DNA from: Sphaerisporangium cinnabarinum
Lineage (GTDB): Bacteria > Actinomycetota > Actinomycetes > Actinomycetales > Cellulomonadaceae
Length of the DNA: 64,000 bases
Direction of reading: 5' to 3'
NCBI GenBank assembly: GCA_003052455.1
Contig: QAPD01000069.1
Span: 1 to 64,000 of the forward strand
This document shows positions 8,617-24,014 of the stretch, one piece after another. Each line of letters begins with the position of its first letter. Within the stretch, counting starts at the first letter, position 1. A program made the position numbers and the translations under genes. Under the pieces are notes generated by a model. That model had not been told where the DNA came from. It ran no database searches and worked only from the letters and a program-made list of their open reading frames with translations.

Positions 8617-10440
8617 GTGGGCGTGCTGCCGGACGACCGAACTCTCGTGGACCTCGTCCGCGACCACGTGCGCGAGCGCCCGGACCACGCCGCGGTCGTC
8701 GTCGTGCCGGAGGTGGGGGAGCGACGGACGCTCACCTACGCCGAGCTCGACGCGCAGGCGGCGGCGCTCGCGGGGCGGCTCGCGGCCCGGCACGAGCCGG
8801 GCGACCGGGCCCTGGTCCTCTACTCCGCCACCGCGTCGTTCGTCGTCGGGCTCCTCGCGTGCTTCTCCGCCGGGCTGGTCCCCGTCCCGTCGCCCCTCCC
8901 GGGCGGGCAGGCGTACCAGCGCGAGCGCGTGCGGGGCATGCTCGCGGACTGCGACGCCGCGGTGGTGCTCGTCGACCCGACCGCCGCGACCGAGACGACG
9001 GAGTGGGCCGCGCCGCTGCGGAGGGCCGACGGCGGCCCGGTCGTCGTCACCGTGGTCGACGGCGCGGCGGACGGCCCGGCGCGGCGGGACCGCCCCGGTC
9101 CGCAGGACGTCGCGTTCCTCCAGTACACCTCCGGGTCCACGAGCAGCCCCAAGGGCGTCGTGGTCACGCACGCGAACGTGCTGCACCACCACGACGCCTT
9201 CACGACGACGCTCGGCCTCGTCCCGGACGACGTCTTCTGCAGCTGGCTCCCCGGGTACCACGACTTCGGGCTCGTCGGGATGCTCCTGGTGCCGCTGGGC
9301 CTCGGGGCGACGGCGGTCGTCGTGCCCTCGACGTCGTTCCTCAAGCGCCCGGTCCGCTGGCTCTCCGCCATCACCGAGACGGGGGCGACCGTCACGGCGT
9401 CGCCGAACTTCGGCTACGACCAGTGCGCGCGGCGCGTGCGCGACGACCAGCTCGCCGAGCTCGACCTGTCCCGCCTGCGCTGGGCCCTCGGGGGTGCCGA
9501 GCCGGTCGATCCCGCCGTCCTCGACGCGTTCACGCGCCGGTTCGAGCCCGTGGGCTTCCGCGGGTCCGCGCACGGCCCCGGGTACGGCCTCGCGGAGGCG
9601 ACGCTGACCGCCACGTACCCCGACAGGCGGCTCCCGCTCGTCGTCACGGCGGACGAGGCTGCGCTCGCCGACGGCCGCCTGGTCGTGACGGCGGAGGCGT
9701 CGTACCTGTCCGCGCTCCCCGACGCCACGGCGGCGGCCGGCGGCCCCGGCGTGCGCCTCGTGTGCTGCGGCGTGCCGAGCGGGGTGGAGCTGCGGGTCGT
9801 GGACGGCGAGGGCGCCACCCTGCCGGACGGCGCGGTCGGCGAGGTCTGGCTGCGCGGCGGCAGCGTCGCGGCCGGGTACTGGGGCGACGCGTCGGCGGCC
9901 GCGACGGCGGAGACCTTCGGCGCCGTCGCCGCGGACGGCACGGGACCGTGGCTGCGGACCGGTGACCTGGGGGCGATGCACGACGGCCAGCTCGTCGTCA
10001 CGGGCCGCATCAAGGAGCTCCTCATCGTCGCGGGGCGCAACCTCTACCCGTACGACCTGGAGCGCGAGCTGCGCCGCCTGCACCCCGGGGCCGAGGGCCG
10101 CCCGGGTGCGGTGTTCGAGGCGGACGGCCGGCCCGGCACGCTGTGCGCGGTCCAGGAGTTCCGCCCCACGCCGGGCGCCCGGGCGGGCGGGGCGGCGAGC
10201 GCCGAGGAGGAGCTGGACGCCGTCGTCCGGCAGATGGCGGCCCACCTCGCGACGGTCTCGGGCGCCACGGTGCACGACGTCGTCCTCGTGCGTCCCGGCC
10301 AGGTGCCGCGGACCACGAGCGGCAAGATCCAGCGCGGCCGGGCGCGCGAGCTGCACGGTCGGGGCGACCTGGCCGCGCTCCACTCCCTGCGCGCGGCCCG
10401 GGACCGCGCGCACCCCGAGCTCGCAGGGACCCGATCATGA
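8617..10440 (+). CDS. Fatty-acyl-AMP ligase (FAAL/FadD32-like)
   Basis: A 607-residue ANL-superfamily adenylating enzyme, the first gene of the biosynthetic operon. It activates a carboxylic acid as acyl-AMP and hands it to a carrier protein. Motifs: 'LQYTSGSTSSPKGVVVTHANV' (A3 loop, near residue 170), 'GYGLAEATLTATYP', 'RTGDLGAMHDGQL', 'GRIKELLIVAGRNLYPYDLE' and C-terminal 'PRTTSGKIQRGRARELH' with the catalytic Lys. The insertion between the A5-like motif and the TGD motif ('VVTADEAALADGRLVVTAEAS...') is typical of FAALs that load ACPs rather than CoA. GTG at 8617 has AGGGGGCG upstream. Its stop overlaps the ACP start (ATGA), so the adjacent ACP is the natural acceptor. Confidence 0.92.
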   Translation: MGVLPDDRTLVDLVRDHVRERPDHAAVVVVPEVGERRTLTYAELDAQAAALAGRLAARHEPGDRALVLYSATASFVVGLLACFSAGLVPVPSPLPGGQAYQRERVRGMLADCDAAVVLVDPTAATETTEWAAPLRRADGGPVVVTVVDGAADGPARRDRPGPQDVAFLQYTSGSTSSPKGVVVTHANVLHHHDAFTTTLGLVPDDVFCSWLPGYHDFGLVGMLLVPLGLGATAVVVPSTSFLKRPVRWLSAITETGATVTASPNFGYDQCARRVRDDQLAELDLSRLRWALGGAEPVDPAVLDAFTRRFEPVGFRGSAHGPGYGLAEATLTATYPDRRLPLVVTADEAALADGRLVVTAEASYLSALPDATAAAGGPGVRLVCCGVPSGVELRVVDGEGATLPDGAVGEVWLRGGSVAAGYWGDASAAATAETFGAVAADGTGPWLRTGDLGAMHDGQLVVTGRIKELLIVAGRNLYPYDLERELRRLHPGAEGRPGAVFEADGRPGTLCAVQEFRPTPGARAGGAASAEEELDAVVRQMAAHLATVSGATVHDVVLVRPGQVPRTTSGKIQRGRARELHGRGDLAALHSLRAARDRAHPELAGTRS

Positions 10441-10703
10441 CCGCACCCCGCCACGACCCCTTCGACGACCTCGTGCTGCGCCACGTCGCCACCGCGCTCG
10501 GCGTCGCCACCACCGACGTGGACCCGGGGGCCGACCTCGCCGGGCTCGGCCTCGGCTCGGTCCAGGTGCTGGCGCTGCTCGGCGACCTGGAGGACGCCCT
10601 CGGCGTCGACCTCGACCCGGAGGCCGTCGTCGACAACCCGACGCCCCGCGCGCTCGCGGCGCACCTGCGCAGCGTCGTCGACGTCCCCGGGACGGCGGCA
10701 TGA
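10437..10703 (+). CDS. Acyl carrier protein (ACP1)
   Basis: An 88-residue free-standing carrier protein. The phosphopantetheine Ser is Ser41 in 'LGLGSVQVLALLGDLEDAL'. The usual four-helix pattern and acidic helix II are visible. It overlaps the FAAL stop and the KASIII-like start by 4 nt each, so it is very likely the carrier for the FAAL-activated chain. Ser41 would be modified by the Sfp-type transferase at 21871. Confidence 0.92.
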   Translation: MTAPRHDPFDDLVLRHVATALGVATTDVDPGADLAGLGLGSVQVLALLGDLEDALGVDLDPEAVVDNPTPRALAAHLRSVVDVPGTAA

Positions 10704-11719
10704 CGACCCTCGTCGACGTCGGCGCGCACGTGCCCGCGACGCGCGTGCCGATCCGCGACCTCGCCGACGAGCTGGGCCTCGACCACCTCGAGCTCGGCGT
10801 GTTCGAGCGGTTCTTCGGGCTGCGCGAGGTGTGCACGGCGCCGGGGCAGACCCTCACCGACCTGCTCGTCGCCGCGGCGCGCGCGGTGCCCGGTCTCGCG
10901 GGCAACGAGCACCGCGTGCGGTACGTGCTCGGGGCGCGGACCATCGCGACGGTCGCACCGGTCGGGGCGAACCCCCTGCACGACGCCGCGGCGCGCCTCG
11001 GCCTGGACCACGCGGTCGTGTGGACGCTCACCCAGCACGCGTGCGCGTCGGCGCTGCTCGCGGTCGACCTCGCGGGGCGCCTCCTCGCGTCGGACGGCGA
11101 CCCGGACGCGCTGGCGCTCGTGCTCACGGGCGAGAAGGCGTTCAGCCCGGGCTCCCGGCTCATCGAGGGCACGACGATCATGGGCGAGGGTACGGCGGCG
11201 TGCCTCGTCGCGGCGTCGGGCCCGTCTGTCGGTGGGTCGGTGCGCACGCCGGGCAGCCCCGTCCTCGCGTACGCGACCCGCACGCTGGGCGAGTATCACC
11301 AGGTGCCGCTGCCCGAGGACCTGGCGGGCCCGTTCGGCGTCGCGTACACCGAGGTGCTCGCCGAGGTCGTGCTCGAGGCCGTCGAGCGCGCGGGCCTCAC
11401 GCTGGACGACCTCGCGCTCGTCCTGCCGCACAACGTCAACCGCGTGTCGTGGCGGCGGCTGTGCGCGCGTCTCGGCCTCCCGCTCGCGCGCGTCCGGCTC
11501 GACGACGTCCCGGTGACCGGCCACTGCTTCGGGGCGGACTCGTTCATCGGCTACGCCGCCGCGCGCACCGAGGGTCGGCTGCGTCCCGGCGACCCGTTCC
11601 TCATGGTCGCCGTCGGGCTGGGCGCCACGTTCTCCGCCATGGTCCTGCGCCACGAGGGCTCCGACAGCTCCGAGGGCTCCGAGGGCGACTCGGTCCACGA
11701 CACGAAGGAGCAGGCATGA
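10700..11719 (+). CDS. KASIII (FabH)-like enzyme with a Cys-His-His site
   Basis: A 339-residue thiolase-fold enzyme of the 3-oxoacyl-ACP synthase III type. The nucleophile is Cys115 ('LTQHACASAL'), and His244 falls in 'VLPHNVNRVS'. The residue that is Asn274 in E. coli FabH ('GN..SAS') is replaced by His275 in 'VTGHCFGADSF'. A Cys-His-His set is found in KASI/II and is unusual for KASIII. The enzyme may therefore elongate, or act as an acyltransferase, rather than do canonical KASIII priming. The last 15 or so residues are a Ser/Glu/Asp-rich tail ('DSSEGSEGDS'). The gene overlaps ACP1 and the ATP-grasp gene by 4 nt each. Confidence 0.85.
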   Translation: MTTLVDVGAHVPATRVPIRDLADELGLDHLELGVFERFFGLREVCTAPGQTLTDLLVAAARAVPGLAGNEHRVRYVLGARTIATVAPVGANPLHDAAARLGLDHAVVWTLTQHACASALLAVDLAGRLLASDGDPDALALVLTGEKAFSPGSRLIEGTTIMGEGTAACLVAASGPSVGGSVRTPGSPVLAYATRTLGEYHQVPLPEDLAGPFGVAYTEVLAEVVLEAVERAGLTLDDLALVLPHNVNRVSWRRLCARLGLPLARVRLDDVPVTGHCFGADSFIGYAAARTEGRLRPGDPFLMVAVGLGATFSAMVLRHEGSDSSEGSEGDSVHDTKEQA

Positions 11720-13164
11720 CGGTCGAGCAGGTGACGGGGACCGCCCCGCACGCGTCGGCGGCGGTCGGCCGCGAGCCGTTCCTCGCGCGCGCCAAGCGCG
11801 CGCTCGCGGGCACGCCTGACGCGCCGCTCGTGCTGCTGGGGAACTTCGAGGTCGAGGACGCGTGGGCGGTCGGCGAGGTCGGCCTGCCCACGGTCGGCGG
11901 CGCGTCGGCGACGGCCGCCCTCGTCCACCGCATGGACGAGCTCGCGCTGCTCCTCGCCGGCCCGCGCGACCACGTGGTGCTCAAGGCCGTGCCGGACCCC
12001 GACCACCTCGCGCACCTGGACGCGCTCGGCGTCGGGCTGCCCACGGTGCACGTCGCCGGGTCGAGCGACCCCCTGCGCACGGTGACGCTCGACGCCCTCG
12101 ACTCGCCCGCGCTGCTCGCGCGCCTCGGGGAGCTCGCGGCGGACGGCGTCCGGCTCCTCGCGCACGGGACGTCGTCGGCCGAGGAGGACCTCGCGACGGC
12201 GACGGGCCTGCGCTCGGTGCTCCCCGACGCGGCGACGACCAAGACCGTCAACAGCAAGGTCTACAGCCGCGGCCTGTGCGACGAGCTGGGCGTCGAGCAA
12301 GCGCGCGGCTGGGCGTGCCGGACCGTCGAGGACTTCGAGCGCGCGTGCGCCGAGGCCGCGCGGCTCGTCGCGGACGGCGCGACCGTCGGCGTCAAGGACG
12401 CGTACGGCGTCTCCGGCAAGGGGATCCTCGTCGTCGACGACCCGCGCCGGCTCGACCAGCTCGTGCGCATGGTTGCGCGCCGGGCCGCGCGCTCGGGCGA
12501 CGACCGCCTCGCCGTCGTGGTGGAGGTCTGGGCCGACAAGGCGACGGACCTCAACTACCACTTCACCGTCGCGCGCGACGGCTCGGTCACGTTCGACTTC
12601 GTCAAGGAGGCGATCACGGAGGGCGGCGTCCACAAGGGCCACCGGATCCCGTCGCGCCTGCCCGCGGACCAGGTCGACGCGCTGGCCGAGCTGTCCGGGC
12701 GCCTCGGCGCGCGTCTCGCGGCCGACGGCTTCCACGGCCTCGTCGGGGTCGACGCGCTCGTGCGCACGGACGGTCGGCTCCTGCCCGTCCTCGAGATCAA
12801 CGCGCGCAGCAACATGTCGACGTACACCGTCCCGCTCCAGGAGCGGTTCCAGCCGGACGGGTGGGTCGCGCTCGCGCGCCAGTACCCGCTGGTGCTCGAC
12901 GCTCCGCTCCCGTTCGCGGCGCTCCACGACCTCCTCGGGGACCTGCTGCCAGGCGCCCCCGGCGAGGCGGGCCTCGTCGTCCAGGGGACGGGCACCGTCA
13001 ACGCGGGTGCGCCGGGCCCGACGCCGGGCGCCACGTTCGCGGGCCGCCTCCACGGCCTCCTCGTCGCGCCCGACGACGAGACCCTGACCCGCCTCGACCG
13101 CGCCGTGACGGAGCGGCTGGCCTCGCGGCCCTCCGCCCGCCCCACCGAAGGAGACGCCCGATGA
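11716..13164 (+). CDS. ATP-grasp ligase (BtrJ-like, amino acid to ACP)
   Basis: A 482-residue ATP-grasp protein. The central 'GVKDAYGVSGKGILVV' is the ATP-clamping strand-loop with Lys, and 'LPVLEINARSNMSTY' supplies the Glu-x-Asn metal ligands. Its placement next to a PLP decarboxylase of the BtrK type and an ACP matches butirosin synthesis, where BtrJ ligates glutamate to the ACP BtrI. By analogy this protein would thioesterify an amino acid onto ACP2; glutamate is the default guess, but the substrate cannot be read from sequence. ATG at 11716 has AAGGAG 7 nt upstream. The first 60 residues lack recognisable motifs. Some ATP-grasp enzymes make amides instead, so the bond type is inferred from context. 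Confidence 0.82.
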   Translation: MTVEQVTGTAPHASAAVGREPFLARAKRALAGTPDAPLVLLGNFEVEDAWAVGEVGLPTVGGASATAALVHRMDELALLLAGPRDHVVLKAVPDPDHLAHLDALGVGLPTVHVAGSSDPLRTVTLDALDSPALLARLGELAADGVRLLAHGTSSAEEDLATATGLRSVLPDAATTKTVNSKVYSRGLCDELGVEQARGWACRTVEDFERACAEAARLVADGATVGVKDAYGVSGKGILVVDDPRRLDQLVRMVARRAARSGDDRLAVVVEVWADKATDLNYHFTVARDGSVTFDFVKEAITEGGVHKGHRIPSRLPADQVDALAELSGRLGARLAADGFHGLVGVDALVRTDGRLLPVLEINARSNMSTYTVPLQERFQPDGWVALARQYPLVLDAPLPFAALHDLLGDLLPGAPGEAGLVVQGTGTVNAGAPGPTPGATFAGRLHGLLVAPDDETLTRLDRAVTERLASRPSARPTEGDAR

Positions 13165-14480
13165 CCACGACGCCGACCCGGCCGACGACGCCCGGGAGCG
13201 CGGACCTCGCCGCGGTCGCGGAGCGGTACGGGACCCCCGTGTACGTGTACGACGGCGACGTGCTCGCCGCGAACTACCGGGCGCTGCGCGAGCGGCTGCA
13301 CCCCGCGCTGGGGATCTTCTACTCGCTCAAGGCGAATCCCAACGTCAGCGTCTGCGGGCTGCTGCACGCGCTCGGCGCGAACGCCGAGGTGTCGTCGCTC
13401 GCCGAGCTGCGCACCGCGCTCGCCGCGGGCGTCGCGCCGCAGGACGTGCTGTTCCTCGGCCCCGGCAAGAGCCGGGACGAGCTCGTCTCGTGCCTCAACT
13501 CGGGCGTGCGCGCGATCATCGTGGAGTCGCTCCCCGAGCTCGCGCTCGTGGACGAGCTCGCGCAGGCGGTGGGACGGCCCGCGCGCGTCGTGCTGCGCGT
13601 CAACCCGTCGTTCTCCGTGAAGGGCTCCGGGCTCACGATGGGCGGCAAGCCGCGCCAGTTCGGGATCGACGAGCAGCAGCTCCTCGACGCGCCCGACCTG
13701 TGCGCCGGGCTCACCGCGGCCCGCGTCGTGGGCGTCCAGGTGTACCTGGGGACGCGCATCCTCGACGAGGGCACGATCGTCGAGAACACGACGCGGATCT
13801 TCGACCTCGCCGAGCGGCTCGCGGAGCGCCTGCGGTTCCCGCTGGAGCTCGTCGACGTCGGCGGGGGCCTGGGCGTCGCGTACTTCGAGCGTGAGCGCGA
13901 CCTCGACGTCGAGGTCCTCACCGCGGCGCTCAACCCCGTCGTCGAGGCGTTCGTGCAGCGCCACCCCCGGACCGACCTCGTCATGGAGCTCGGCCGCTAC
14001 CTCGTGGCGCTGTGCGGCACGTACGTCGCGCGCGTGCGGTACGTGAAGGAGTCCATGGGCGAGCGGTTCGCCGTGGCCGACGGCGGCACGAACCACCACA
14101 TGGCGGCCGTCGGCATCGGGTCGTTCGTCAAGCGCAACTTCCCCATGCGCCGCGTCGGGCCCGCCTCGACCGCCGAGGACGTCGCGTGGAACGTCACCGG
14201 TCCCCTGTGCACCCCCAACGACACGATCGGCAAGGCCGTGGCGCTCCCGGCCGACCTCGCGCCGGGCGACCTCGTCGCCGTGGAACGCTCCGGCGCGTAC
14301 GGCGCGACGGCGTCGCCGGTGCACTTCCTCAGCCACGGGTACCCGGCCGAGGTCCTCACGCTGGGCGACGAGACGTTCCTCGTCCGGCACGCGGACACGC
14401 CGGACGACCTCCTCGCGCGCCAGGTGTTCCACGACCTCGGCGCGCGGGTCGAGCCCGTCGCCGCCGGCGCCGTCCCCTGA
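13161..14480 (+). CDS. PLP-dependent decarboxylase, DapDC/OrnDC fold (BtrK-like)
   Basis: A 439-residue fold-type III decarboxylase. The PLP lysine is Lys57 in 'GIFYSLKANPNVS'. Further motifs are 'GANAEVSSLAELRTAL', 'VDVGGGLGV' (phosphate binding), 'MELGRYLVA' and 'GPLCTPNDTIGKAV', the last carrying the Cys and Asp of the dimer active site. The family includes diaminopimelate and ornithine decarboxylases. BtrK (butirosin) and VinO (vicenistatin) are members that act on carrier-bound amino acids. Context (ATP-grasp ligase upstream, ACP downstream) favours an ACP-bound substrate; from glutamate the product would be 4-aminobutyryl-ACP. It overlaps the ATP-grasp stop by 4 nt. A free-lysA role is unlikely because it lies inside this operon. 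Confidence 0.88.
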   Translation: MTTTPTRPTTPGSADLAAVAERYGTPVYVYDGDVLAANYRALRERLHPALGIFYSLKANPNVSVCGLLHALGANAEVSSLAELRTALAAGVAPQDVLFLGPGKSRDELVSCLNSGVRAIIVESLPELALVDELAQAVGRPARVVLRVNPSFSVKGSGLTMGGKPRQFGIDEQQLLDAPDLCAGLTAARVVGVQVYLGTRILDEGTIVENTTRIFDLAERLAERLRFPLELVDVGGGLGVAYFERERDLDVEVLTAALNPVVEAFVQRHPRTDLVMELGRYLVALCGTYVARVRYVKESMGERFAVADGGTNHHMAAVGIGSFVKRNFPMRRVGPASTAEDVAWNVTGPLCTPNDTIGKAVALPADLAPGDLVAVERSGAYGATASPVHFLSHGYPAEVLTLGDETFLVRHADTPDDLLARQVFHDLGARVEPVAAGAVP

Positions 14481-14550
14481 CCCGCTGCCCGTCCGCCGTC
14501 GTCCAGCCACCGCCCGCCTCGCGGGCCGATCCACCACCGGAGGAACCATC

Positions 14551-14835
14551 GTGAGCACCAGCATCGAGCCGCAGGAGGCCCTCGGCCGCGAGCGCGTCGT
14601 GGGGGCCGTCGTCGAGGCGCTGTCGAGCGTCCTCGGGCGACCGCTGCCCGACGTGACCGCCACGACGCGCCTGTTCGACGACCTCGACCTCGACTCCACG
14701 AGCGTCCTCGGCCTGCTCATGGCCCTCGAGGACTCCCTCGACATGGAGGTCGACCCGGAGTCGCTCGAGCAGCACCACCTCGAGACGGTCGGCTCGCTGA
14801 CGGACTTCGTCGTCGAGCACTCGACCCGGAACTGA
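14551..14835 (+). CDS. Acyl carrier protein (ACP2, BtrI-like)
   Basis: A 94-residue carrier protein with the phosphopantetheine Ser at Ser49 ('DDLDLDSTSVLGLLMALED'). A strong GGAGGA lies 6 nt before the GTG at 14551. The 70-nt gap upstream is the longest in the first half of the operon, so this gene has its own efficient ribosome entry. Position directly after the ligase and decarboxylase makes it the likely carrier for the amino-acyl unit. Confidence 0.9.
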   Translation: MSTSIEPQEALGRERVVGAVVEALSSVLGRPLPDVTATTRLFDDLDLDSTSVLGLLMALEDSLDMEVDPESLEQHHLETVGSLTDFVVEHSTRN

Positions 14836-14836
14836 C

Positions 14837-15820
14837 GTGCCGTCCGGGGGCAGCGGCGCCGGAGCCTCGCGGGGGTGCTGGCCGCGCGGGGACGGGCTGC
14901 GGGTGCGGGCGGTCGTGGACGTCCCGGTCGACGACCTCGCGCCCGTCGGGGACGGGACGCGGCGGTCGGTCGCGGAGGACCTGCGGTACGTCTACGGCGA
15001 GGACCAGCCGACGGACTGGCTCGAGGACGGGCCGGGCCGCGACTACCCGACGATGATCCGCGCCGCGCGCGCGGCCCTCGGCGGGCGCGGTCTGCTCGAC
15101 GACGTGCGCCTCGTCGTGCTCGTCGTGACGACGCCCGACCTCCAGCACGAGCGGCTCCTCGGCGGGTTCGTCGCGGACCTGTTCGACGGCGGCCCGTTCA
15201 CCTTCTGCGTCACGGAGCAGGGGCTCGCGGGCCCGTTCACCGCGCTGCGGCTCGCGGGCGAGCTGCTCGCCGACGGCGGGTGGGACGGGGGGCCGGGCGT
15301 CGGGTCGGTCGGCGGGTCGGGCGATGCAGCGCGGGGTGGGACGGCCGTCGTGCTCGTCCTCGAGCAGTGCACGCTCCCGCCCACGGAGACGCGCGTCCCG
15401 GCGCGGGACCGCGTGGTGGCGCTCGTCGTCGGGCGCGACGGCGTGGGGCGGCCCGTCGAGGAGCTGTCGGTCGTGCGCGCCCCACGGGGTCCGCGACCCG
15501 CGGGTCGCGGCGCCTCGGCGGGGGCGTCCGACGCGCCCCGCGAGATGGGCTCGGACGTCCGGCGCGTCGTCCTCGGCGTCGACGTGGACCCGGCCGACGT
15601 GCCCGTGCTCGACGGCGACGTCGTGCGGCACGCCGACCCCGGGGCCGCGGCGACGGGCGTCTGGGAGGTGCTCGCGGACGACGACGCCCCGGACGCGCCC
15701 GTCGTGCTGCACGAGCGGTGCGTCGAGCTCGGCTACCGCTGCTCGCTCGCCCTCGGTCCGTGGTCGGCCACGACGTCCCGCGAGACCGACGGCCGCGCCC
15801 GCGCGGGGGTGCTCGCATGA
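14837..15820 (+). CDS. Thiolase-fold-like protein without catalytic Cys (hypothetical)
   Basis: A 327-residue protein I cannot assign firmly. The stretch 'FTFCVTEQGLAGPFTALRLAGELLADGG' followed by 'TAVVLVLEQCTLPP' looks like the nucleophile-elbow helix and following strand of ketosynthases and thiolases, but Cys is replaced at the elbow (TEQGLAG). A second domain from about residue 200 ('VRRVVLGVDVDPADVP...') has the pattern of the other half of the fold. It may be a non-catalytic partner of the KASIII-like enzyme. The GTG start lies 1 nt after the ACP2 stop. A Gly-rich linker around residues 150-170 is not conserved-looking. Confidence 0.5.
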   Translation: MPSGGSGAGASRGCWPRGDGLRVRAVVDVPVDDLAPVGDGTRRSVAEDLRYVYGEDQPTDWLEDGPGRDYPTMIRAARAALGGRGLLDDVRLVVLVVTTPDLQHERLLGGFVADLFDGGPFTFCVTEQGLAGPFTALRLAGELLADGGWDGGPGVGSVGGSGDAARGGTAVVLVLEQCTLPPTETRVPARDRVVALVVGRDGVGRPVEELSVVRAPRGPRPAGRGASAGASDAPREMGSDVRRVVLGVDVDPADVPVLDGDVVRHADPGAAATGVWEVLADDDAPDAPVVLHERCVELGYRCSLALGPWSATTSRETDGRARAGVLA

Positions 15821-16632: not shown

Positions 16633-17777
16633 CCACCGTCGATCTCGGCGCGCTGCGGGACCACCTGCGGCCCGTCGCCGCCGCGCTCCGCGAGCGCGCG
16701 CTCGCGGTCGACACCGACCCGGGAGCCCTGCACGCGCTCCTCGACTCCGGCGTGCTGCCCTACCGGCAGCTCGGCGGCTTCCCGCCCGGCTACCTTGACG
16801 ACCCACTCCGCGTGCGGGGCGTGCCCGTGCTCGTGCGCACGTGCGTCGAGCGCGCCGTCGTCGCGGAGACGCTCGCGTGGGGAGACGCGTCCGTCGTCGT
16901 CGGGGCGCCGGGGCCGTCGATGTCCGGGGTCGTCGTGGACGACCTCGCGGACGACGAGCAGCGCGACCGCTTCTACCGGCACGTCGCGCAGCCGCGCACC
17001 TGGACGTTCTTCGGGCTCACCGAGCCCGACCGCGGCTCGGACGCCGCCGCGCTCGAGACCGCGGTGGTCGCGGGAGGCGTCCTGCGCGGCCACAAGAAGT
17101 ACGTCGGCAACGTCGCCCGCGCGAGCCTCGGCGTCGTGTTCGCGCGGCACCGCCCGGGTCCGCTCGGGGTCGGGGTCTACCTCGTCGACACCGCGCGCCC
17201 GGGCTTCGACGCCGCCCCGCTCGTGACGACGGGCATGCGGGCCGTGCAGCTCGGCGAGGTGCGGCTGCGCGACGTGCCGCTCCGCCCGGAGGACACCCTG
17301 GGCCGGCACCTCTCGCCGTCGCGCCGCGGGCTCCTCGGCGCGGTCCGCACGTTCAACCGGCTGCGTCCCGTCGTCGCGGCGCTGGCCGTGGGGGTCACGC
17401 AGGCGGCGCTGGACTACGTGCGGACCGAGCGGTCGTCGTTCACGGCCGACGAGCGCGGGCTGCTCGAGACGTTCGACGACCGTCTCCACGCGGCCCGGGC
17501 CCTCGTGCTCCAGGCGGCGCGCGGCGCCGACGCCGACCCGGCGGACGGGACGCTGCCCGCGGCGGCGAAGGCCACGGCGCTGGACCTCGCGGACGAGGTC
17601 ACCCGCACGGTGCCCGCTCTGCTCGGCCCCGGTGCGCGCTGGGAGCACCCGTACCTCGACAAGCTCGTCCGGGACGTGCCCGGGCTGGAGATGATGGAGG
17701 GCACGCGGACCGTCCAGCGGCTCACGCTCGCCCAGGGCTGGCTGCAGGGCAGGGCACGGCATGCCGAGCTGGTCTAG
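16629..17777 (+). CDS. Acyl-CoA dehydrogenase family flavoprotein
   Basis: A 382-residue ACAD-family protein. The middle domain shows 'TFFGLTEPDRGSDAAALET' (the T-E-P-x-x-G-S-D FAD/substrate motif) and 'LRGHKKYVGNVARAS' in place of the usual G-x-K-x-x-x-x-N. The C-terminal helical domain has 'RPVVAALAVGVTQAALDYV' and ends 'MMEGTRTVQRLTLAQGWL', close to the usual 'E-G-T/A-x-x-x-Q' site. In natural-product operons such enzymes desaturate carrier-bound acyl chains or act as N- or C-oxidases. Here the substrate may be the ACP2-bound amino acyl unit or the fatty chain. It overlaps the previous gene by 4 nt and the MATE gene by 17 nt. Confidence 0.85.
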   Translation: MTTVDLGALRDHLRPVAAALRERALAVDTDPGALHALLDSGVLPYRQLGGFPPGYLDDPLRVRGVPVLVRTCVERAVVAETLAWGDASVVVGAPGPSMSGVVVDDLADDEQRDRFYRHVAQPRTWTFFGLTEPDRGSDAAALETAVVAGGVLRGHKKYVGNVARASLGVVFARHRPGPLGVGVYLVDTARPGFDAAPLVTTGMRAVQLGEVRLRDVPLRPEDTLGRHLSPSRRGLLGAVRTFNRLRPVVAALAVGVTQAALDYVRTERSSFTADERGLLETFDDRLHAARALVLQAARGADADPADGTLPAAAKATALDLADEVTRTVPALLGPGARWEHPYLDKLVRDVPGLEMMEGTRTVQRLTLAQGWLQGRARHAELV

Positions 17778-19296
17778 GGCTGCCGGAAGGGCGCCGGCCT
17801 TGCCCGCACCCGGGACTGATCCGCACGCCGCCGCGCCGCTGGACGGGGCGGGCGGCTCGGATGCTGCCGGAGGCTCGCGCGCGGTGGGCGCCCCGACGGA
17901 CGCGTCGGTCCCGTCGGTCCCGTCGGTCGCGGAGCTGCGTCGTCGCGTCCTGCGGCTCGCGGGCCCGATCTGCGCCGCGCTCGTCGTCGGAGCCCTCGCG
18001 CAGCTCGTCGTGGCGGCGCTGCTCGGCCACATGGGCGACGACGCCCTGTACGTGCGCGCGCTGTTCATCCCCGTGACGTTCCTCGTCCTCGCGGTCCAGG
18101 AAGGCCTCGACGTCTCGACGCAGGTCGGGTTCGCGCGCCTGCGCGGCGCGCGCGACGGGGACGACGCGCCGACGTCCGCGACGACGGCGCTCCTGGGCCG
18201 GTTCGTGGGCGCGGGCGCCGCGGTGCTCGGCGCCGTGGCGCTGCTCGTCGTCCTCGCCGCCCCGGCGCTCGCGACCGTGCTCTCGGTGCCGGGCCCGCTC
18301 GTCGCGGAGTTCGTGGCGTTCGCGCGCTGGACGGTGCTCGCGAGCGTCCTGTCCGTGCCGACGGCGGTGGCGGCCGCCGCGCTGCGCGGCTGGGGCCGCA
18401 CGGGCGCGTCGGCGACCGTCGCGCTGCTCGTCGCAGGGCTCCAGGTGCTCGTCGTGTGGCTCGTCGGGCTGGTCGGCGGGTTCGGCGTCCTCGCCGTCCC
18501 GGTCGCGATCGCCGGGTCGACCCTCGTGGGCGCGGGCGTCGCGTGGGCCCTCCTCGTGCGCGCGCGCCTCCTCCCGGCTCCGGGACGGCTGATGCCCGGC
18601 GTCGCGCGACCGGGCGCGGCGGACCACCGGGGCGTCGACGTGCGCGCGCTCCTCCTCGGCGTCGGTCTGCCAGTCGGCCTGTCCTATCTCCTGCTCACCG
18701 CGACCAACCTCGTCATGGTGTGGGTGCTCGGGCCGTCGGGGACCGCCGTCGTCGCCGGGTTCGGCGGCGCCGCGACGGTCCAGACGCTCGTCGTCGTGCC
18801 GGCCATCGGCCTCGCGGCCGCGGTGAGCATCGTCATGAACCAGCAGTGGGGTGCGGGCGAGCTCCGCCTCCTGCCGCGCACGTTCCGCGCCGGGACGGTC
18901 GTGGTCGCGGGGACGTACGTCGTCGTGGGCGGCCTCGTCCTCGCGGCGGCGCCCCTCCTCGCGGGGCAGCTCTCCGCCGACCCGGAGGTCGCCGCGCAGG
19001 CGGCGCTGTACCTGCGGGTCGTCGGGCCGTCGTACGCGGGCGTCGGCCTCGTGCTGTACCTCGTGACGCTGCTCGAGCAGCTCGGCTACGGGCGCGTCGC
19101 CGTGACGCTCAACGTGCTCTACCACGCGGTGTCGCTCGGGGTCGGCGGGGCGCTCGCGCGGTCGGGCGGCGGGCCCATCGCGCTGTACGCGACGATCGCG
19201 GTGACGAACGTCGTCGGGCTGGCCGTCCTGCTCCCTGTCGCGGTGCACCTCGTGCGACGACGCGCGGGCGGCCGGGTGGGGCAGGGCACGCCGTGA
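17761..19296 (+). CDS. MATE family efflux transporter
   Basis: A 511-residue membrane protein. After a Ser/Ala/Gly-rich cytoplasmic N-terminus of about 55 residues there are 12 predicted membrane segments in two homologous halves, each starting with 'GPICAALVVGALAQLVVAALLGHMG'- or 'GLPVGLSYLLLTATNLVMVWVLG'-type helices, the MATE pattern. It uses ion gradients to export small molecules and is the most likely exporter or self-resistance component for the operon product. ATG at 17761 overlaps the ACAD gene by 17 nt with a weak AGGGC upstream. Confidence 0.9.
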   Translation: MPSWSRAAGRAPALPAPGTDPHAAAPLDGAGGSDAAGGSRAVGAPTDASVPSVPSVAELRRRVLRLAGPICAALVVGALAQLVVAALLGHMGDDALYVRALFIPVTFLVLAVQEGLDVSTQVGFARLRGARDGDDAPTSATTALLGRFVGAGAAVLGAVALLVVLAAPALATVLSVPGPLVAEFVAFARWTVLASVLSVPTAVAAAALRGWGRTGASATVALLVAGLQVLVVWLVGLVGGFGVLAVPVAIAGSTLVGAGVAWALLVRARLLPAPGRLMPGVARPGAADHRGVDVRALLLGVGLPVGLSYLLLTATNLVMVWVLGPSGTAVVAGFGGAATVQTLVVVPAIGLAAAVSIVMNQQWGAGELRLLPRTFRAGTVVVAGTYVVVGGLVLAAAPLLAGQLSADPEVAAQAALYLRVVGPSYAGVGLVLYLVTLLEQLGYGRVAVTLNVLYHAVSLGVGGALARSGGGPIALYATIAVTNVVGLAVLLPVAVHLVRRRAGGRVGQGTP

Positions 19297-21179
19297 CGGC
19301 CGGAGCGGCGGTCGCGCACGCCGGGGAGCCCGGGCCGGGAACGGCTGCGGCAGGCGGCGCGGGCCGCGACCCGGTGCTGAGCGTCGTCGTCATGCACCAC
19401 CCGGCGCGGGGCGACGTGTCGGGCCTCGTACGCGCGTGCGCGCCGCTGCACGTCCGCGTCGTCGAGGACCCCGACCCGGACGGTCCGCCCAGCCCGCTGC
19501 GCACCGCCAAGCGCGCCTGGGCCGCCGTCGCGCCGGGTGCGACGCACCACCTCGTGCTCCAGGACGACGTCACGCCCGTCGCGGGCTTCGCCGCACTCGT
19601 CCGGCGGGCGGTGCGCGCCCGGCCGCGGCACGCCGTGGCGCTGTACTCGAACTGGAACAGCCCGCGCAACGCCTACCTCGTGCGCGCCGCCGCGGCCGCG
19701 GGCCAGGCCTGGGCGCCGCTGGGCCACGACGAGTGGGTGCCGACCCTCGGCCTCGTGCTCCCCGCCGACGGCGCCCGACGCCTCGCCGCGCACCTCGCGA
19801 CCCTGCCCGACGACGCGCGCGACGACGACGAGGCCGTCGTGACGTTCTGCGCACGCGAGGGGTACCCGGTCGTCGCGACGCTGCCGCACCTGCTCGAGCA
19901 CGGCGACGGCCCCAGCCTCGCGGGCAACGACGCGCACGGCGCCCGCCACGCCACCGTCCCGGCGGGCGACGTCGTCGACCCGGACGCGTGGGACCGTCCG
20001 GGGCCGGAGCGCACGCCACCGCGCACGCCCGCGACCCTGCGGCCGGTCGCCGTGACGCTCGACCGGTCGCGCTGCACGCTGCGCGTCCTGCGTCCGGCGG
20101 TGGGCGAGCCGCTCGAGCACCCGTTCGGGTGGGGCTGGGACGCGTGGGCGGGGTGGCTCGGCGTCGACCCGGCGGTCGTCGCGCACGACGTCGCGGCGCT
20201 CGCCGCCGGGGTCTGCCCGGAGCTCGGGGGTGTCGCCCCCGCGGCGCTCGTCGAGCTCGGCGCGGCGTGCTGGCTGCTCGGGTCCGACGTCGCGCGCACG
20301 GACTGGCCACCGCCCGCCGGCGCGGGGACGACGGCGCACCGCGTGGCCGCGGTCCGGACGTGGGTGCTCGCGGGGCTGCTCCCCGCCGACCGCCCCGAGG
20401 GTCGGGTGGACGAGCTCGTCGCGTTCGGTCTCGACGCGCTCGCCGCAGGCGCGGCGTGGGCGACCACGGCGCGGGACGCCACGGTGGGCGGCGCGTCCCC
20501 TGCGGGGCCTGCCCGGCCCGATCCGGCCGTTCTCGACGACCGACCCGACCTGGCCGCAGGCGACGACCGTCGCGGCCCGACCGCTTGCGACGACAGTCCC
20601 CACCCGGCCGCTCGCGACGACCGGCTCGACCCGGCCGCGCTCGACGCGGTGCGGCTCCTGGCCGAGCGGGACGCGGCCGTCGTCTGCCGCGCGGCCGGTC
20701 CCGCGGTGCCGGTCCGGGTCGTCGTGCACGACTGCGTGACGTGCGGCGCGCAGGCCGCGCACGCCGTCGCCGACCTCGCCGCGCACGCCGACCTCGACGG
20801 CGCGGCCGAGCACGCCGTGGCGACCGCCGTCGAGCGGGACGCCACGGGCACCCGGGCGACGGTCGAGGTCCTCGCGTGCGAGCGCCTGGAGGCGCGGGGG
20901 TTCCTCGGCCTGGTGCCGGGCGGACGGCACGTCTCGCGCGGGCTGTGGGCGGCTCACCGCGCGTCGGCCACGGGCGAGGAGCGGATCGACGCCGCCGACC
21001 TCCTCGTGGCGCTGGTGGACGAGGCGTCCGGCCTCCCCGTCGTGGCCCGGGCGGTGGGCGAGCCGCTCGGCCGCCCGAGCCGCGCGCTGCTCGGGCTCCA
21101 GCACGCGACGGGTGCCGCGCAGGAGTACGCCGACCGGTACGCCGCGGCGCGGTCCGCGCGCGCGGCGGAGCTGCTGTGA
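19293..21179 (+). CDS. Glycosyltransferase-like protein with unknown C-terminal domains
   Basis: A 628-residue protein inside the biosynthetic operon. Residues about 30-215 look like a GT-A-type glycosyltransferase of the kind that handles 'HHLVLQDDVTPVAGF' (DxD-like), 'VALYSNWNSPRNAYL' and 'DDDEAVVTFCAREGYPVVATLPHLLEH'. Residues 220-410 form an uncharacterised domain ('HPFGWGWDAWAGWLGVD'). A linker of four 9-residue repeats (see 20535-20642) leads to a C-terminal domain with 'VHDCVTCGAQAAHAVADLAAHADLDGAAEHAVATA'. I do not recognise the second and third domains. GTG at 19293 overlaps the MATE stop. A sugar transfer step in product tailoring is possible but unproven. Confidence 0.55.
   Translation: MTAGAAVAHAGEPGPGTAAAGGAGRDPVLSVVVMHHPARGDVSGLVRACAPLHVRVVEDPDPDGPPSPLRTAKRAWAAVAPGATHHLVLQDDVTPVAGFAALVRRAVRARPRHAVALYSNWNSPRNAYLVRAAAAAGQAWAPLGHDEWVPTLGLVLPADGARRLAAHLATLPDDARDDDEAVVTFCAREGYPVVATLPHLLEHGDGPSLAGNDAHGARHATVPAGDVVDPDAWDRPGPERTPPRTPATLRPVAVTLDRSRCTLRVLRPAVGEPLEHPFGWGWDAWAGWLGVDPAVVAHDVAALAAGVCPELGGVAPAALVELGAACWLLGSDVARTDWPPPAGAGTTAHRVAAVRTWVLAGLLPADRPEGRVDELVAFGLDALAAGAAWATTARDATVGGASPAGPARPDPAVLDDRPDLAAGDDRRGPTACDDSPHPAARDDRLDPAALDAVRLLAERDAAVVCRAAGPAVPVRVVVHDCVTCGAQAAHAVADLAAHADLDGAAEHAVATAVERDATGTRATVEVLACERLEARGFLGLVPGGRHVSRGLWAAHRASATGEERIDAADLLVALVDEASGLPVVARAVGEPLGRPSRALLGLQHATGAAQEYADRYAAARSARAAELL
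20535..20642 (+). repeat. Four 27-nt tandem repeats within the glycosyltransferase-like gene
   Basis: Units begin at 20535, 20562, 20589 and 20616, each opening with GACGAC. They encode DDRPDLAAG, DDRRGPTAC, DDSPHPAAR and DDRLDPAAL. The repeats are in frame and diverged, so copy-number change would leave the protein readable. They probably form an extended acidic/basic linker. Confidence 0.85.
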
Positions 21180-21874
21180 GCGGCGGCCCGGCAGGGGGGT
21201 GGCGGTGGCGCGGGGACGCGCTGCTGCTCGACCTCGACGGCACGCTCGTCGACTCGTCCGCCGCGATCGAGCGCCACACGCTCGCGTGGGCCGCGCGCCT
21301 CGGGCTGGACGGCGCGGCCGTCGTCGCCGCGTCCCACGGGCGGCGTGACGTCGAGGTCGTCCGCCTCGTCGCGCCGGGCGCCGACGTCGCGCGCGAGGTC
21401 GCGTGGCTGCACCGCCTCTCGTGCGACGACACGGAGGGCGTCGTCGCCGTGCCGGGCGCGGCCGACCTGCTGGCCGGGCTGGACCCGCGCACGTGGACCG
21501 TCGTGACGTCGGCGGCGCGTGAGGTGGCGCTCGCGCGCCTCACGGCGGCCGGGCTGCCGGTGCCGGGGCGCCTCGTGTGCTCGGAGGACGTGACGCGCGG
21601 GAAGCCCGACCCCGAGGGTTTCCGCGCCGGGGCCGGGCTGCTCGGCGTCGACGCGCGGCGGTGCCTCGTGCTGGAGGACTCGGCGGCGGGCGTGGCGGCG
21701 GGCCGCGGGGCGACGGCGGCGGTGCTCGCCGTCGGGCCGGAGCCCGTGCCGGGGGCGCACCACCGCGTGCCGGACCTGCGGCCGGTGGCGGCACAGCCGC
21801 TGCGCGACGGGCTGGAGGTCGTCGTGCGGGTCGACCGCGCTCTGCCGGTGGCCGGGCTGGAGGTCGTGGCGTGA
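21176..21874 (+). CDS. HAD-superfamily hydrolase (beta-phosphoglucomutase-like subgroup)
   Basis: A 232-residue HAD hydrolase. Motif I is 'LLLDLDGTLVDSS' (nucleophile Asp), motif II 'TVVTSAAREVALARL' (Thr/Ser), and motifs III/IV are 'GKPDPEGFRAGAGLLG' with 'CLVLEDSAAGVAAG'. The helical cap between motifs I and II marks subclass I (GPP/sugar-phosphatase type, e.g. DOG phosphatases). In an operon with a glycosyltransferase-like gene it may remove a phosphate from a sugar or pathway intermediate. GTG at 21176 overlaps the previous stop by 4 nt. Confidence 0.88.
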   Translation: MSGGPAGGWRWRGDALLLDLDGTLVDSSAAIERHTLAWAARLGLDGAAVVAASHGRRDVEVVRLVAPGADVAREVAWLHRLSCDDTEGVVAVPGAADLLAGLDPRTWTVVTSAAREVALARLTAAGLPVPGRLVCSEDVTRGKPDPEGFRAGAGLLGVDARRCLVLEDSAAGVAAGRGATAAVLAVGPEPVPGAHHRVPDLRPVAAQPLRDGLEVVVRVDRALPVAGLEVVA

Positions 21875-22575
21875 GCGGTGCCCTCGAGGTCGAGGTCTGG
21901 TCCGTCGACACGACGGTCCCCGTGCCGGGCGGAGCGACCCTCCTCGGCCCGGCCGAGCGCGCGCGGTCCGCGCGGTTCGTGTCCGGCGTCGACGCGTCCC
22001 GCTACGTGCACGCCCACGTCGCCGCACGGACGATCCTCGCGCGCCGCACGGGGCTCTCACCGGCGGACGTCCGGTGGGAGGTGGGGCCGCACGGGAAGCC
22101 GGGACCCGTCGTCGGGCAGCGGTGGAACCTCAGCCGGAGCGGGGGGCACGCGCTCGTCGCGCTCGCCGTCGCCGACGTGGGCGTCGACGTGCAGGTGCGC
22201 GACCCCCGCGTCGACGTGGCCCGCGTCGCGGCGCGCTACCTCGCCCCCGCTGGCCGGACCGCGGGAGCCGCCGACGACTGGCGGCGCCTCGCGCGCCTGG
22301 AGGCGTGCGCCAAGGCGGTCGGCGGGCGCCTGCTCGACGTGCTCGGGCTCGACGTCACCACCCCCGGGCTCGTGCGGGCCGACGGCGGCGCGTGGTGCGG
22401 GCACGAGTGGTGGGTGACCGACGTGCCGGCCCCGGGCGGCGCCGTCGCCGCGTGCGCGACGCCCGGTGCGCGCCCGCACGCGTGCCGCGTCCGGACGTGG
22501 CCGGGTGAGCAGCGCGACCGCCCCCGCACGGTCCGGGTCCCGCAGCCGGCCGCCGTGGTGGAGGGGGTCCGATGA
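21871..22575 (+). CDS. Sfp-type 4'-phosphopantetheinyl transferase (variant motifs)
   Basis: A 234-residue PPTase that should convert ACP1 and ACP2 from apo to holo form using CoA. P1-like 'VGPHGKPGP', P2 'WNLSRSGGHALVALA' and 'VGVDVQVRDPRVD', and P3 'WRRLARLEACAKAVGG' are recognisable. Compared with Sfp, the FNLSHS His is Arg, the metal-ligand Glu of GVDIE is Gln, and the Lys of W..KE is Leu. The first Asp and the last Glu are retained. Family membership is clear from layout and operon position, but activity may be altered. GTG at 21871 overlaps the HAD stop. Confidence 0.85.
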   Translation: MSGALEVEVWSVDTTVPVPGGATLLGPAERARSARFVSGVDASRYVHAHVAARTILARRTGLSPADVRWEVGPHGKPGPVVGQRWNLSRSGGHALVALAVADVGVDVQVRDPRVDVARVAARYLAPAGRTAGAADDWRRLARLEACAKAVGGRLLDVLGLDVTTPGLVRADGGAWCGHEWWVTDVPAPGGAVAACATPGARPHACRVRTWPGEQRDRPRTVRVPQPAAVVEGVR

Positions 22576-24014
22576 GGGTCGTGCACCGGGTCGGGGTCCG
22601 TGGCCCGACGGGCGAGGGGCCCGCCACGTGGGGACAGACCGCCATCCGGCGGGCGCTCGCCGCGCTCGTGCCGCAGGACCACCAGTTCAACCTCGTCTGG
22701 GGCGGTCCGCTCGATCGTCCGCTGCCCGTCGCCGCGGCGGTCGAGGTCGTGCGGGCGCTCGTCGAGCGGCACGACTCCCTGCGGACCCGGATCCACGCAC
22801 GGGGCGGCGACTTCGTCCAGGAGCTCTGCGGCGCCGGGGAGGTGGAGGTCGTCGAGGAGCGGGTCGACGACCTCGACGCCGTCGCCGTGCGCGGCGCACG
22901 GATGCGCCACGAGCTCTGGGGCCGGGCGTTCGACTACGCGACGGACTTGCCCGTGCGCGCCGGTCTCGTGACCGTCGACGGCGCGGTGCACCACACGGTG
23001 CTCGTCGTCGCGCACACCGCCCTCGACGGGTGGGGCCTGCCCGTGCTCGACGCCGACCTCACGGCCCTCGCCGCGGGGACCGCCCCGCCGGAGCGGACCG
23101 CGTGGACGCCGCTAGACGAGGCGGCCTGGCAGACGTCGGACGAGGGCCGACGGCACGACGCCGCCGCCCGCGCGCGCACCCTGCGCACGATGCGGGCGGC
23201 GCCCGTCGAGGTCTTCCCGCGGGGGAGCCCCGACGGCGGGACCACCGGCGGCGGGAGCACCGCCCGCGAGGGCGCAGGAGACGAGGGGACGGAGGGCGGG
23301 GGCGCGGGAGGCACGGTCGCCGCCGCGCGGCCGCGCTACCGGCAGACCGTCCTGCGGTCGATGCGGCTCGGTCCCGCCGCCGAGCTCGTCGCCGCGCGGT
23401 GGCGCACGAGCACGTCCTCGGTGCTGCTCGCGGCGTCGTGCCGGGCGCTGGCCGCCGCCGCGGGCCGGGACGACCTCGCGCTCCAGGTCATGGTGAGCAA
23501 CCGGTTCCGGCCGGCGCTCGCGGACGCCGTCGTGACGACCGCGATGGAGGGGTTGCTCCACGTCGACGGTCTCGACGCCCCGTTCGAGGAGGTCGGGCCG
23601 CGCGTCTGGCGGGCCGCGATGACGGCGTACCGCTCGGCCTGCTACGACAAGGATCTGCTCCGGCGCGAGGCCGCCGCCGACCCGACGACCGCGCACGACG
23701 GGACCTGCTGGTACAACGACCGGCGTGGCACCGGGCCCGACCGGACGTTGCGGGCGCGGCCCACGCGGTGGCGGCGGCTGGCGCGCGCCGACGCGTCCGA
23801 CGAGCAGGGCGGCGTCACGCTCACGCTGCACCTCGTGGACGCCCCGGACGGCGGCGTCGACGTGGTGCTGACGGCGGACGCCGGGCGCCTCGACGACACG
23901 ACCGCGGAGTCCGTGGTGCGGGACGTCGAGCGCACGGTCCTGGCGGCCTCCCGGGCCCCGACCTCCTCGGCGCCTCGACGCGACCCTCGGGCCGCCGCCC
24001 CCCGCACTCCGTGA
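22572..24014 (+). CDS. Free-standing NRPS condensation-domain protein
   Basis: A 480-residue protein of the condensation-domain/chloramphenicol-acetyltransferase superfamily. The catalytic motif is 'VVAHTALDGWG' (H-x-x-x-D-G; the first His of HHxxxDG is Ala, which is common). Further cues are 'RHDSLRTRIH' in the N-terminal lobe, 'LQVMVSNRFRP' and the C-terminal 'WYNDRRG'. A Gly/Thr-rich linker of about 35 residues (near 220-255) separates the lobes. No adenylation or carrier domain is attached, so it must act on carrier proteins in trans: probably ACP1-fatty acyl as donor and an amine such as the ACP2-bound omega-amino acyl group as acceptor. ATG at 22572 overlaps the PPTase stop. It is the last gene of the operon. 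Confidence 0.85.
   Translation: MRVVHRVGVRGPTGEGPATWGQTAIRRALAALVPQDHQFNLVWGGPLDRPLPVAAAVEVVRALVERHDSLRTRIHARGGDFVQELCGAGEVEVVEERVDDLDAVAVRGARMRHELWGRAFDYATDLPVRAGLVTVDGAVHHTVLVVAHTALDGWGLPVLDADLTALAAGTAPPERTAWTPLDEAAWQTSDEGRRHDAAARARTLRTMRAAPVEVFPRGSPDGGTTGGGSTAREGAGDEGTEGGGAGGTVAAARPRYRQTVLRSMRLGPAAELVAARWRTSTSSVLLAASCRALAAAAGRDDLALQVMVSNRFRPALADAVVTTAMEGLLHVDGLDAPFEEVGPRVWRAAMTAYRSACYDKDLLRREAAADPTTAHDGTCWYNDRRGTGPDRTLRARPTRWRRLARADASDEQGGVTLTLHLVDAPDGGVDVVLTADAGRLDDTTAESVVRDVERTVLAASRAPTSSAPRRDPRAAAPRTP

Follow-up and report, generated by a model that had tools for sequence, protein, structure and literature searches.

In the present work we analysed a 64,000-nucleotide stretch of DNA from Sphaerisporangium cinnabarinum (GenBank assembly GCA_003052455.1, contig QAPD01000069.1, positions 1 to 64,000 of the forward strand), hereafter the window, and in particular a run of 14 genes embedded in it, which we interpret as an operon probably responsible for a lipid amide built without a nonribosomal peptide synthetase (NRPS). 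The 14 genes, located through a GC-frame scan of open reading frames (ORFs) and a simple gene caller, all lie on the plus strand within positions 8617–24014.

The first gene (8617–10440) codes for a fatty acyl-AMP ligase (FAAL; Pfam AMP-binding, 7.3e-68), the sole AMP-binding match among the 14 proteins; its top NCBIfam model is a fatty-acid-AMP ligase (375 bits, under the cut-off of 775), and a weak DIP2-like match (0.0028) was found in its C-terminal part. It is followed by an acyl carrier protein, ACP1, its probable partner (10437–10703; PP-binding, 1.6e-15), by KS3, a probable N-acyltransferase, judging from its residues, of the β-ketoacyl-ACP synthase III (KASIII) type (10700–11719; ACP_syn_III_C), by a putative ATP-grasp amino acid:ACP ligase with a BtrJ-like role (11716–13164; PreATP-grasp, 4e-16), by a BtrK-like pyridoxal phosphate (PLP) decarboxylase of the Orn/Arg-type family (13161–14480) and by a second carrier, ACP2, putatively amino-acylated (14551–14835; PP-binding, 6e-10). 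G7 (14837–15820), recognised by profile and fold, is a degenerate KASIII lacking the catalytic Cys and the probable partner of KS3. Two acyl-CoA dehydrogenase genes come next: a truncated one encoding the C-terminal domain only (15817–16632; Acyl-CoA_dh_1, 2.4e-5) and a full one, ACAD, proposed as an N-acyl-β-alanyl-ACP desaturase (16629–17777; Acyl-CoA_dh_M, 1e-14, and Acyl-CoA_dh_1, 2e-14). The last part harbors a MATE-family exporter (17761–19296; MatE, 5.9e-26), G11, with a putative glycosyltransferase-like domain and a C-terminal domain without family (19293–21179; weak Foldseek matches), a HAD-family hydrolase (21176–21874; Hydrolase, 3.5e-14), a probable Sfp-type phosphopantetheinyl transferase (PPTase; 21871–22575; ACPS) and a stand-alone condensation (C) domain (22572–24014; Condensation, 8e-13). 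Pfam gave no family for two of the 14 proteins, that is, G7 and G11.

Neighbouring genes overlap by 4 nt at 10 of the 13 junctions; the others are those between the decarboxylase and ACP2 (+70 nt), between ACP2 and G7 (+1 nt) and between ACAD and MATE (−17 nt). The same-strand run with mostly 4-nt overlaps described in the initial annotation is therefore real, and the two carrier proteins, the exporter and the ACAD-like enzymes it listed, which could form a double bond, were all found. The PPTase it named can also be retained: its own match is weak (ACPS, E-value 0.07), and the equivalent gene in one of the related loci described below (L035) reaches 3e-8. The LuxR-type regulator, which had been counted in the set, is not one of the 14: the gene that was probably meant lies upstream on the minus strand (7777–8388; GerE, 9.6e-10), divergent from the FAAL gene and probably associated with it.

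The closest named match of the ATP-grasp protein is that of Cellulosimicrobium funkei (94%), Cellulosimicrobium being the nearest named genus. From 121 genomes of the family, an ATP-grasp match at E ≤ 0.001 was retrieved in 14 and was strong in 10, namely the window's own genome, eight of the same genus and one of another genus; it was absent from two same-genus genomes among the 121. An order-wide scan gave a match at E ≤ 1e-20 in one genome (its own) out of 347, in a sample apparently holding few or no members of the genus. All 14 genes were colinear on one strand in each of the nine regions fetched (eight from the same genus and one from a sister genus of the family), so that the arrangement is not due to chance. 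Furthermore, when GTDB contigs were scanned using the aligned ATP-grasp sequences, 99 relatives were confirmed, the best 80 of which were kept: eight from Cellulosimicrobium and 72 others, hereafter the outside loci. The complete set of 14 is visible in four of the eight Cellulosimicrobium loci, the C domain alone is missing in three (L027, L028, and L030), and seven of the 14 genes are visible in the eighth (L031), these stretches stopping about 10 kb past the match or at a contig end.

The counts over the 72 outside loci describe loci picked by their ATP-grasp, and they are lower bounds, because contig ends cut several of them. Within these limits, a five-gene core (KASIII, ATP-grasp, decarboxylase, ACP2, and G7) keeps one order and one strand in 55 of the 72, and in 46 of those 55 ACAD is also in place. 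Taken gene by gene, best matches were found for KASIII in 67 loci, the decarboxylase in 66, ACP2 in 64, ACAD in 57, G7 in 55, the truncated ACAD in 45, FAAL-like proteins in 40 (just 14 of which exceed 150 bits), PPTase in 33, C-domain-like proteins in 21, ACP1 in 15, MATE in 10, G11 in six, and HAD in none. The variable part of the operon, by this gene-content comparison, is thus FAAL, ACP1, MATE, the C domain, G11, and HAD. The closest layout outside the genus is that of L063, where FAAL is visible by tblastn alone (48%). The initial annotation had grouped KASIII with FAAL and ACP1 on a fatty side; KASIII heads the conserved five-gene block and, on this basis, goes with the amino-acyl module, while FAAL and ACP1 vary.

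Other combinations of the same genes were observed. In five Amycolatopsis loci (L042, L047, L051, L052, and L075) the ATP-grasp is the sole cassette member found in the stretch and adjoins genes for a ketosynthase/chain-length factor (KS/CLF), a ketoreductase, PALP-family, ornithine-cyclodeaminase, MbtH and MMPL proteins; according to these loci, the ligase may be used alone elsewhere. The Sinosporangium album locus (L095) harbors ATP-grasp, ACP, KASIII and ACAD homologs, and a BtrK-like decarboxylase was not detected in the stretch examined.

The initial annotation compared the ATP-grasp, the decarboxylase and ACP2 with BtrJ, BtrK and BtrI of butirosin biosynthesis, a pathway with glutamate as substrate and an aminoglycoside as acceptor. 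In that reading, the ATP-grasp would load L-glutamate, the decarboxylase would yield 4-aminobutyryl-ACP2, and the product would be an N-acyl-GABA or a 4-aminocrotonyl amide joined by the C domain. The three components are indeed shared (BtrJ being compared by domain and role only), whereas the window operon has in addition the KASIII pair, the ACADs and FAAL. As a single sequence, the ATP-grasp had no match in the PDB, and its profile retrieved PGM1 at 5.7e-7; the PDB matches of ACP2 are ordinary ACPs, and in relatives its gene is colinear with that of the decarboxylase. The best solved relative of the decarboxylase is BtrK (4e-98; 332 bits versus 167 for the next one, a diaminopimelate decarboxylase), filed in the PDB as L-glutamyl-[BtrI ACP] decarboxylase, and its top NCBIfam models, an exosortase-associated decarboxylase and LysA, are both under their cut-offs. 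The motif GP[LIVM]C[TS]PxD (GPLCTPxD-type) occurs in 72 of 75 decarboxylase orthologues and the GPxCES form in none of the 75, orthologue motif counts excluding L026–L033 and short ORFs. By sequence, the BtrK-like decarboxylase of the initial annotation is thus supported.

The relatives point to a different amino acid. A methylaspartate mutase gene was found in 10 of the 72 outside loci (L034–L038, L040, L043, L044, L050, and L054), and in a tree of 75 ATP-grasp rows these 10 loci form one group (100/99). A 100/100 branch sets this group, the window group and L063 apart from the remaining 55 rows. The tree leaves out L026–L033 (near-duplicates), L024 (called ORF longer than 700 residues) and six outside loci in which the decarboxylase was not matched; it is midpoint-rooted and L063 has a long branch, so that a sister relation of the mutase group is unproven. 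Methylaspartate being a homologue of aspartate, these branches favour substrates of the aspartate type; a search of the window's genome gave no match to the mutase, and thus plain aspartate is the likely substrate, as judged from the relatives. By analogy, the unit on ACP2 would more likely be β-alanyl (from Asp) than the 4-aminobutyryl (from Glu) of the initial annotation. The mutase-bearing relatives, which would make an aspartate homologue, speak against the glutamate reading, as do a cassette-bearing NRPS locus pointing to dehydro-β-alanine (see below) and, in the available part of the bolagladin report, BolN, which is BtrK-like and yet has a proposed aspartyl substrate, so that similarity to BtrK leaves the substrate unfixed. 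We consider the butirosin-type route unlikely.

Concerning the mutase loci themselves, seven of them (L034–L038, L040, and L043) carry the cassette beside the mutase and a protein resembling FMN glutamate synthase; in seven there are also genes for MbtH and for a subunit that binds B12, and in six one for an NRPS protein. The NRPS of L035 reads C-A-T-TE, and this locus has a class II tRNA-synthetase-like protein as well. From their gene content, these loci are predicted to make α-methyl-dehydro-β-alanine peptides.

A second indication comes from loci where the cassette stands beside an NRPS. By family clusters with annotated representatives, PALP-family genes occur in 21 of the 72 outside loci and ornithine-cyclodeaminase-family genes in 19; from their likeness to the SbnA/SbnB pair, we take the two together to suggest a supply of 2,3-diaminopropionate (Dpr). 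In Streptomyces nigrescens HEK616 (L103 and L106, same genome) the cassette is followed by a PALP gene and then by an NRPS, which by motif reads C-A-T-E-C-T / C-A-T-C-A-T-TE. Its adenylation (A) domain codes, with signature positions and code meanings that we assume to be as usually given, look Dpr-like (DVW..ADD), Gly-like, and Phe-like. This order is predicted to correspond to the enamidonin backbone in cyclically permuted form, provided that the module without an A domain also takes Dpr. A readable NRPS A domain was found in 19 of the 31 stretches scanned, namely 12 cassette-NRPS loci, L106, and six mutase loci; D[VI]W..ADD comes first in 10 of those 12, the two others being L046 (code misread) and L071 (a Gly/Phe protein). 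In loci with Dpr-type NRPSs, too, the ATP-grasp replaces the A-domain loader.

HEK616 also has a streptoaminal cluster, which is not the cassette locus; streptoaminal/5aTHQ (stm) was discarded as the product of the latter, since the nine stm genes, in the available part of the source (PMC12187902), include an aminotransferase and two KS/CLF sets. MetRS-cupin systems were also discarded as a match, their gene set being different in the accessible portion of the paper (PMC2922099).

Enamidonins and autucedines contain N-acyl-dehydro-β-alanine, as do olenamidonins; the first two are grouped as related lipopeptides in the available text of a 2025 review. In the enamidonin type, the KASIII protein OleH/AutS has been proposed to join an acyl-CoA to dehydro-β-alanyl-ACP; for the aut cluster, PMC11204786 cites the range WP_194276129–WP_194276149. 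The autucedine, enamidonin and olenamidonin systems are linked to the present one through HEK616, where the cassette adjoins an NRPS whose predicted order matches theirs, and through a KASIII as proposed N-acylating enzyme. The window operon differs in lacking NRPS and Dpr genes and in having FAAL, ACP1, the stand-alone C domain, MATE, the glycosyltransferase-like protein, and HAD. Olenamidonins inhibited two enterococci at 1.56–6.25 µg/mL and did not inhibit the other three bacteria tested. In S. olivaceus, the deletion of a DtxR-family gene activated the olenamidonin cluster; in the window, a DtxR/IdeR-type metal repressor gene (3542–4252, plus strand) adjoins that of an iron/manganese superoxide dismutase (4382–5005, minus strand), which is perhaps a coincidence.

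Two systems of Burkholderia are also informative, as far as the available parts of the respective reports describe them. In the bolagladin proposal (bolC/N/O/M/P/Q, Burkholderia gladioli), Asp on BolC is decarboxylated by the BtrK-like BolN, N-acylated by one of a pair of KASIII homologues and then desaturated by BolQ to dehydro-β-alanine; the deletion of bolN abolished bolagladin production and that of bolQ led to β-alanine analogues. A BtrK-like decarboxylase, a free ACP, two KASIII homologues and an ACAD are thus shared with the window operon; bolagladin differs in its VinN-type A-domain loader, where the operon has the ATP-grasp, in its tetramodular NRPS and in its KASIII nucleophiles, which are Ser and Thr in bolagladin and Cys and none in the window. 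Domain scans found no VinN-type A domain among the 14 proteins, the ATP-grasp standing in its place. In AFC-BC11 biosynthesis (afc, Burkholderia cepacia complex), the accessible account describes, in vitro, Asp loading by an A-domain enzyme, ACP-bound decarboxylation, acylation of the amine by FAAL and release of the chain by a KASIII-like protein. Like the window operon, the afc set has no modular NRPS and comprises FAAL, a free carrier protein, a PLP decarboxylase, KASIII-like proteins, a dehydrogenase (BolQ-like in afc), and a glycosyltransferase-type gene (tentative in the window); it differs in the A-domain loader, in three consecutive dehydro-β-alanines, in a Lys (CoA ester) acceptor and in lacking a C domain.

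The step forming the lipid-amino amide would probably depend on KS3 and G7. The best PDB match of KS3 is FabH (3e-11), followed by ChlB3, filed as an acyltransferase, and then by DpsC and CerJ among others. Cys115, His244, and His275 are invariant in all 25 aligned sequences, with His275 replacing the catalytic Asn known from FabH, and by motif they were found in 72, 74, and 74 of 76 orthologues, respectively. The G7 profile retrieved FabH (2.9e-5) and also ChlB3 from the PDB. The AlphaFold model of G7 (pLDDT 81.5) gave ChlB3 as the best Foldseek match (6e-9, probability 1.00, TM 0.51), with OleA, CerJ, and FabH also at probability 1.00 and TM of about 0.5; no Cys occurs at the nucleophile column in any of the 24 rows. 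Alignments A3, A4, and A6 are chosen subsets of 24, 25, and 8 rows, respectively, and alignment A2 holds six sequences. One Cys-bearing subunit accompanied by a same-fold partner without Cys is a PqsBC-like pattern, which does not imply kinship to PqsB and PqsC themselves; on these sequence features, KS3 and G7 may form a heteromer.

In principle, such a pair could form a C–C bond, through decarboxylative condensation with malonyl-ACP, and give a β-keto product (PqsBC- or FabH-like) that may cyclise. The best PDB matches of KS3 are FabH condensing enzymes, the Cys and His are kept, and a two-subunit KASIII would resemble PqsBC, the G7 profile giving PqsC only at an E-value of 0.55; for the first of these reasons we hold the overall reading proposed below slightly less firmly, and condensation slightly more likely. 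Nevertheless, the His that all 25 sequences carry where FabH has its Asn, the acyltransferase ChlB3 as best non-FabH match of KS3 and best fold match of G7, and the cassette adjoining an NRPS that fits N-acyl-dehydro-β-alanine lipopeptides all argue against it, and we regard C–C bond formation as the most improbable of the alternatives considered. A further possibility, modelled on AFC-BC11, is that FAAL would acylate the amine of β-alanyl-ACP2 and that the KASIII pair would act as a shuttle or release acyltransferase. The in vitro AFC-BC11 data, in the available part of the report, and the FAAL of the operon favour this route; it is made doubtful by ACP1, which directly follows the FAAL gene as its apparent partner, by the KASIII pair occurring often without a strong FAAL match (above 150 bits in 14 of 72 loci) and by the C domain, which could already cover release. 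It seems a minor candidate, though not the weakest. In the initial annotation, the C domain could join the fatty chain to the amino unit; it is more probable that the KASIII pair (or FAAL) makes this amide and that the C domain performs a final transfer.

As for the dehydrogenases, the motif EG[TS]xxxQ is present in 63 of 67 ACAD orthologues and in two of 55 truncated partners, which suggests that the two may work as a heteromer. With ACAD domains present, a BolQ-like role is a candidate one, the comparison with BolQ being by role and not by sequence.

At E ≤ 0.001, the whole genome gave no C-domain match other than this one; therefore, no NRPS is there to receive a starter. VibH-type stand-alone condensation enzymes consist of a free C domain without linked A domain or peptidyl carrier protein; the window's C domain is likewise unlinked, the likeness being one of architecture alone. 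It carries AHTALDG instead of HHxxxDG, with His148, Asp152, and the Gly retained; all eight relatives aligned keep Asp152, and seven of the eight keep the second His. We suppose that the C domain may transfer the acyl unit to a free amine. G11 shows an HHLVLQDD motif in eight of eight sequences; its model is of low confidence (mean pLDDT 59.8), and the top Foldseek matches are mostly glycosyltransferases (best 1.2e-3, none at E ≤ 0.001), so that the model makes it tentatively glycosyltransferase-like. Its C-terminal extension, for which no Pfam family was matched, is present in the window and in L023–L025, and the shorter homologs of L039, L055, L056, and L064 lack it. That HAD and G11 act on the acceptor is a guess.

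On the basis of the core colinear in 55 of 72 loci, the decarboxylase closest to BtrK, the bolagladin, AFC-BC11 and enamidonin parallels, the HEK616 cassette beside an enamidonin-like NRPS, the mutase clade and the Cys-less KASIII-fold G7, we propose by analogy, at a probability of roughly 0.57, that the operon makes an N-acyl-dehydro-β-alanyl (enamide) lipid amide without an NRPS. In this scheme, the Sfp-type PPTase would arm both ACPs, FAAL would put a fatty acid on ACP1 and the ATP-grasp would couple the β-carboxyl of L-aspartate to ACP2; the BtrK-like enzyme would then remove the α-carboxyl to give β-alanyl-ACP2, and KS3, with its Cys-His-His residues, together with the Cys-less G7 would move the fatty acyl group onto the free amine. 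ACAD and its truncated partner would desaturate the β-alanyl part, yielding N-acyl-dehydro-β-alanyl-ACP2, and the stand-alone C domain would pass the acyl unit to a soluble amine. The glycosyltransferase-like G11 and HAD might act on the acceptor, either preparing or decorating it, and export of the product would fall to MATE.

Several points weigh against this proposal. The preference for Asp over Glu is drawn from relatives of the operon, and bolagladin and AFC-BC11, in the available parts of their reports, rely on a VinN-type A domain for loading and not on an ATP-grasp. The direct comparison of the G7 and KS3 profiles is weak (probability 26.6, E-value 7e-4), weaker than that of G7 with the PDB, and the best solved relatives of KS3 are condensing enzymes. 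In the C domain, the first His of the HHxxxDG motif is missing. In HEK616, PALP occurs alone, with no ornithine-cyclodeaminase gene in the stretch examined, one NRPS module is without an A domain by motif, and the link to an enamidonin-type product is a prediction, no report of production having been seen; the likeness to the autucedine system is one of predicted NRPS order and of a KASIII in the proposed N-acylating role. Moreover, the order of steps may differ: in the accessible AFC-BC11 text FAAL acylates the amine and KASIII releases the chain, and the available accounts have acylation on dehydro-β-alanyl-ACP for the olenamidonin authors and desaturation after acylation for the bolagladin authors.

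A genome-mining report (PMC12689991) deals, in the part available, with Streptomyces and Micrococcus and not with Cellulosimicrobium. No paper on the 14-gene set was found in open-licence PubMed Central, no search having named the exact gene set. The statement of the initial annotation that no characterised product is known thus holds for the whole set in the searches made, and not for the core, which is linked to a known N-acyl-dehydro-β-alanine unit. By analogy and through one matching NRPS locus, the amino-acyl half can be considered an instance of the cassette linked to N-acyl-dehydro-β-alanine lipopeptides; what is new is that the cassette occurs here without an NRPS and together with FAAL, ACP1, and a single free C domain. 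It is possible, albeit tentative, that this context represents an NRPS-free class of lipids, in which a fatty enamide is assembled on two free carriers by an ATP-grasp ligase and a KASIII/pseudo-KASIII heterodimer serving as amide synthase, and is finally handed by a C domain to a soluble amine that may be glycosylated.

Neither the NRPS-free FAAL/C-domain operons nor the methylaspartate-mutase clusters are described as cassette contexts in the literature surveyed, no search having been aimed at the mutase clusters; they add two further contexts to the cassette. The order of steps becomes testable: whether the KASIII pair, FAAL or the C domain makes the amide, and at which point the double bond is introduced. 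In turn, a widespread actinobacterial cassette, whose ATP-grasp had 99 confirmed relatives in a single scan of genomes, would be tied to a specific chemical unit.

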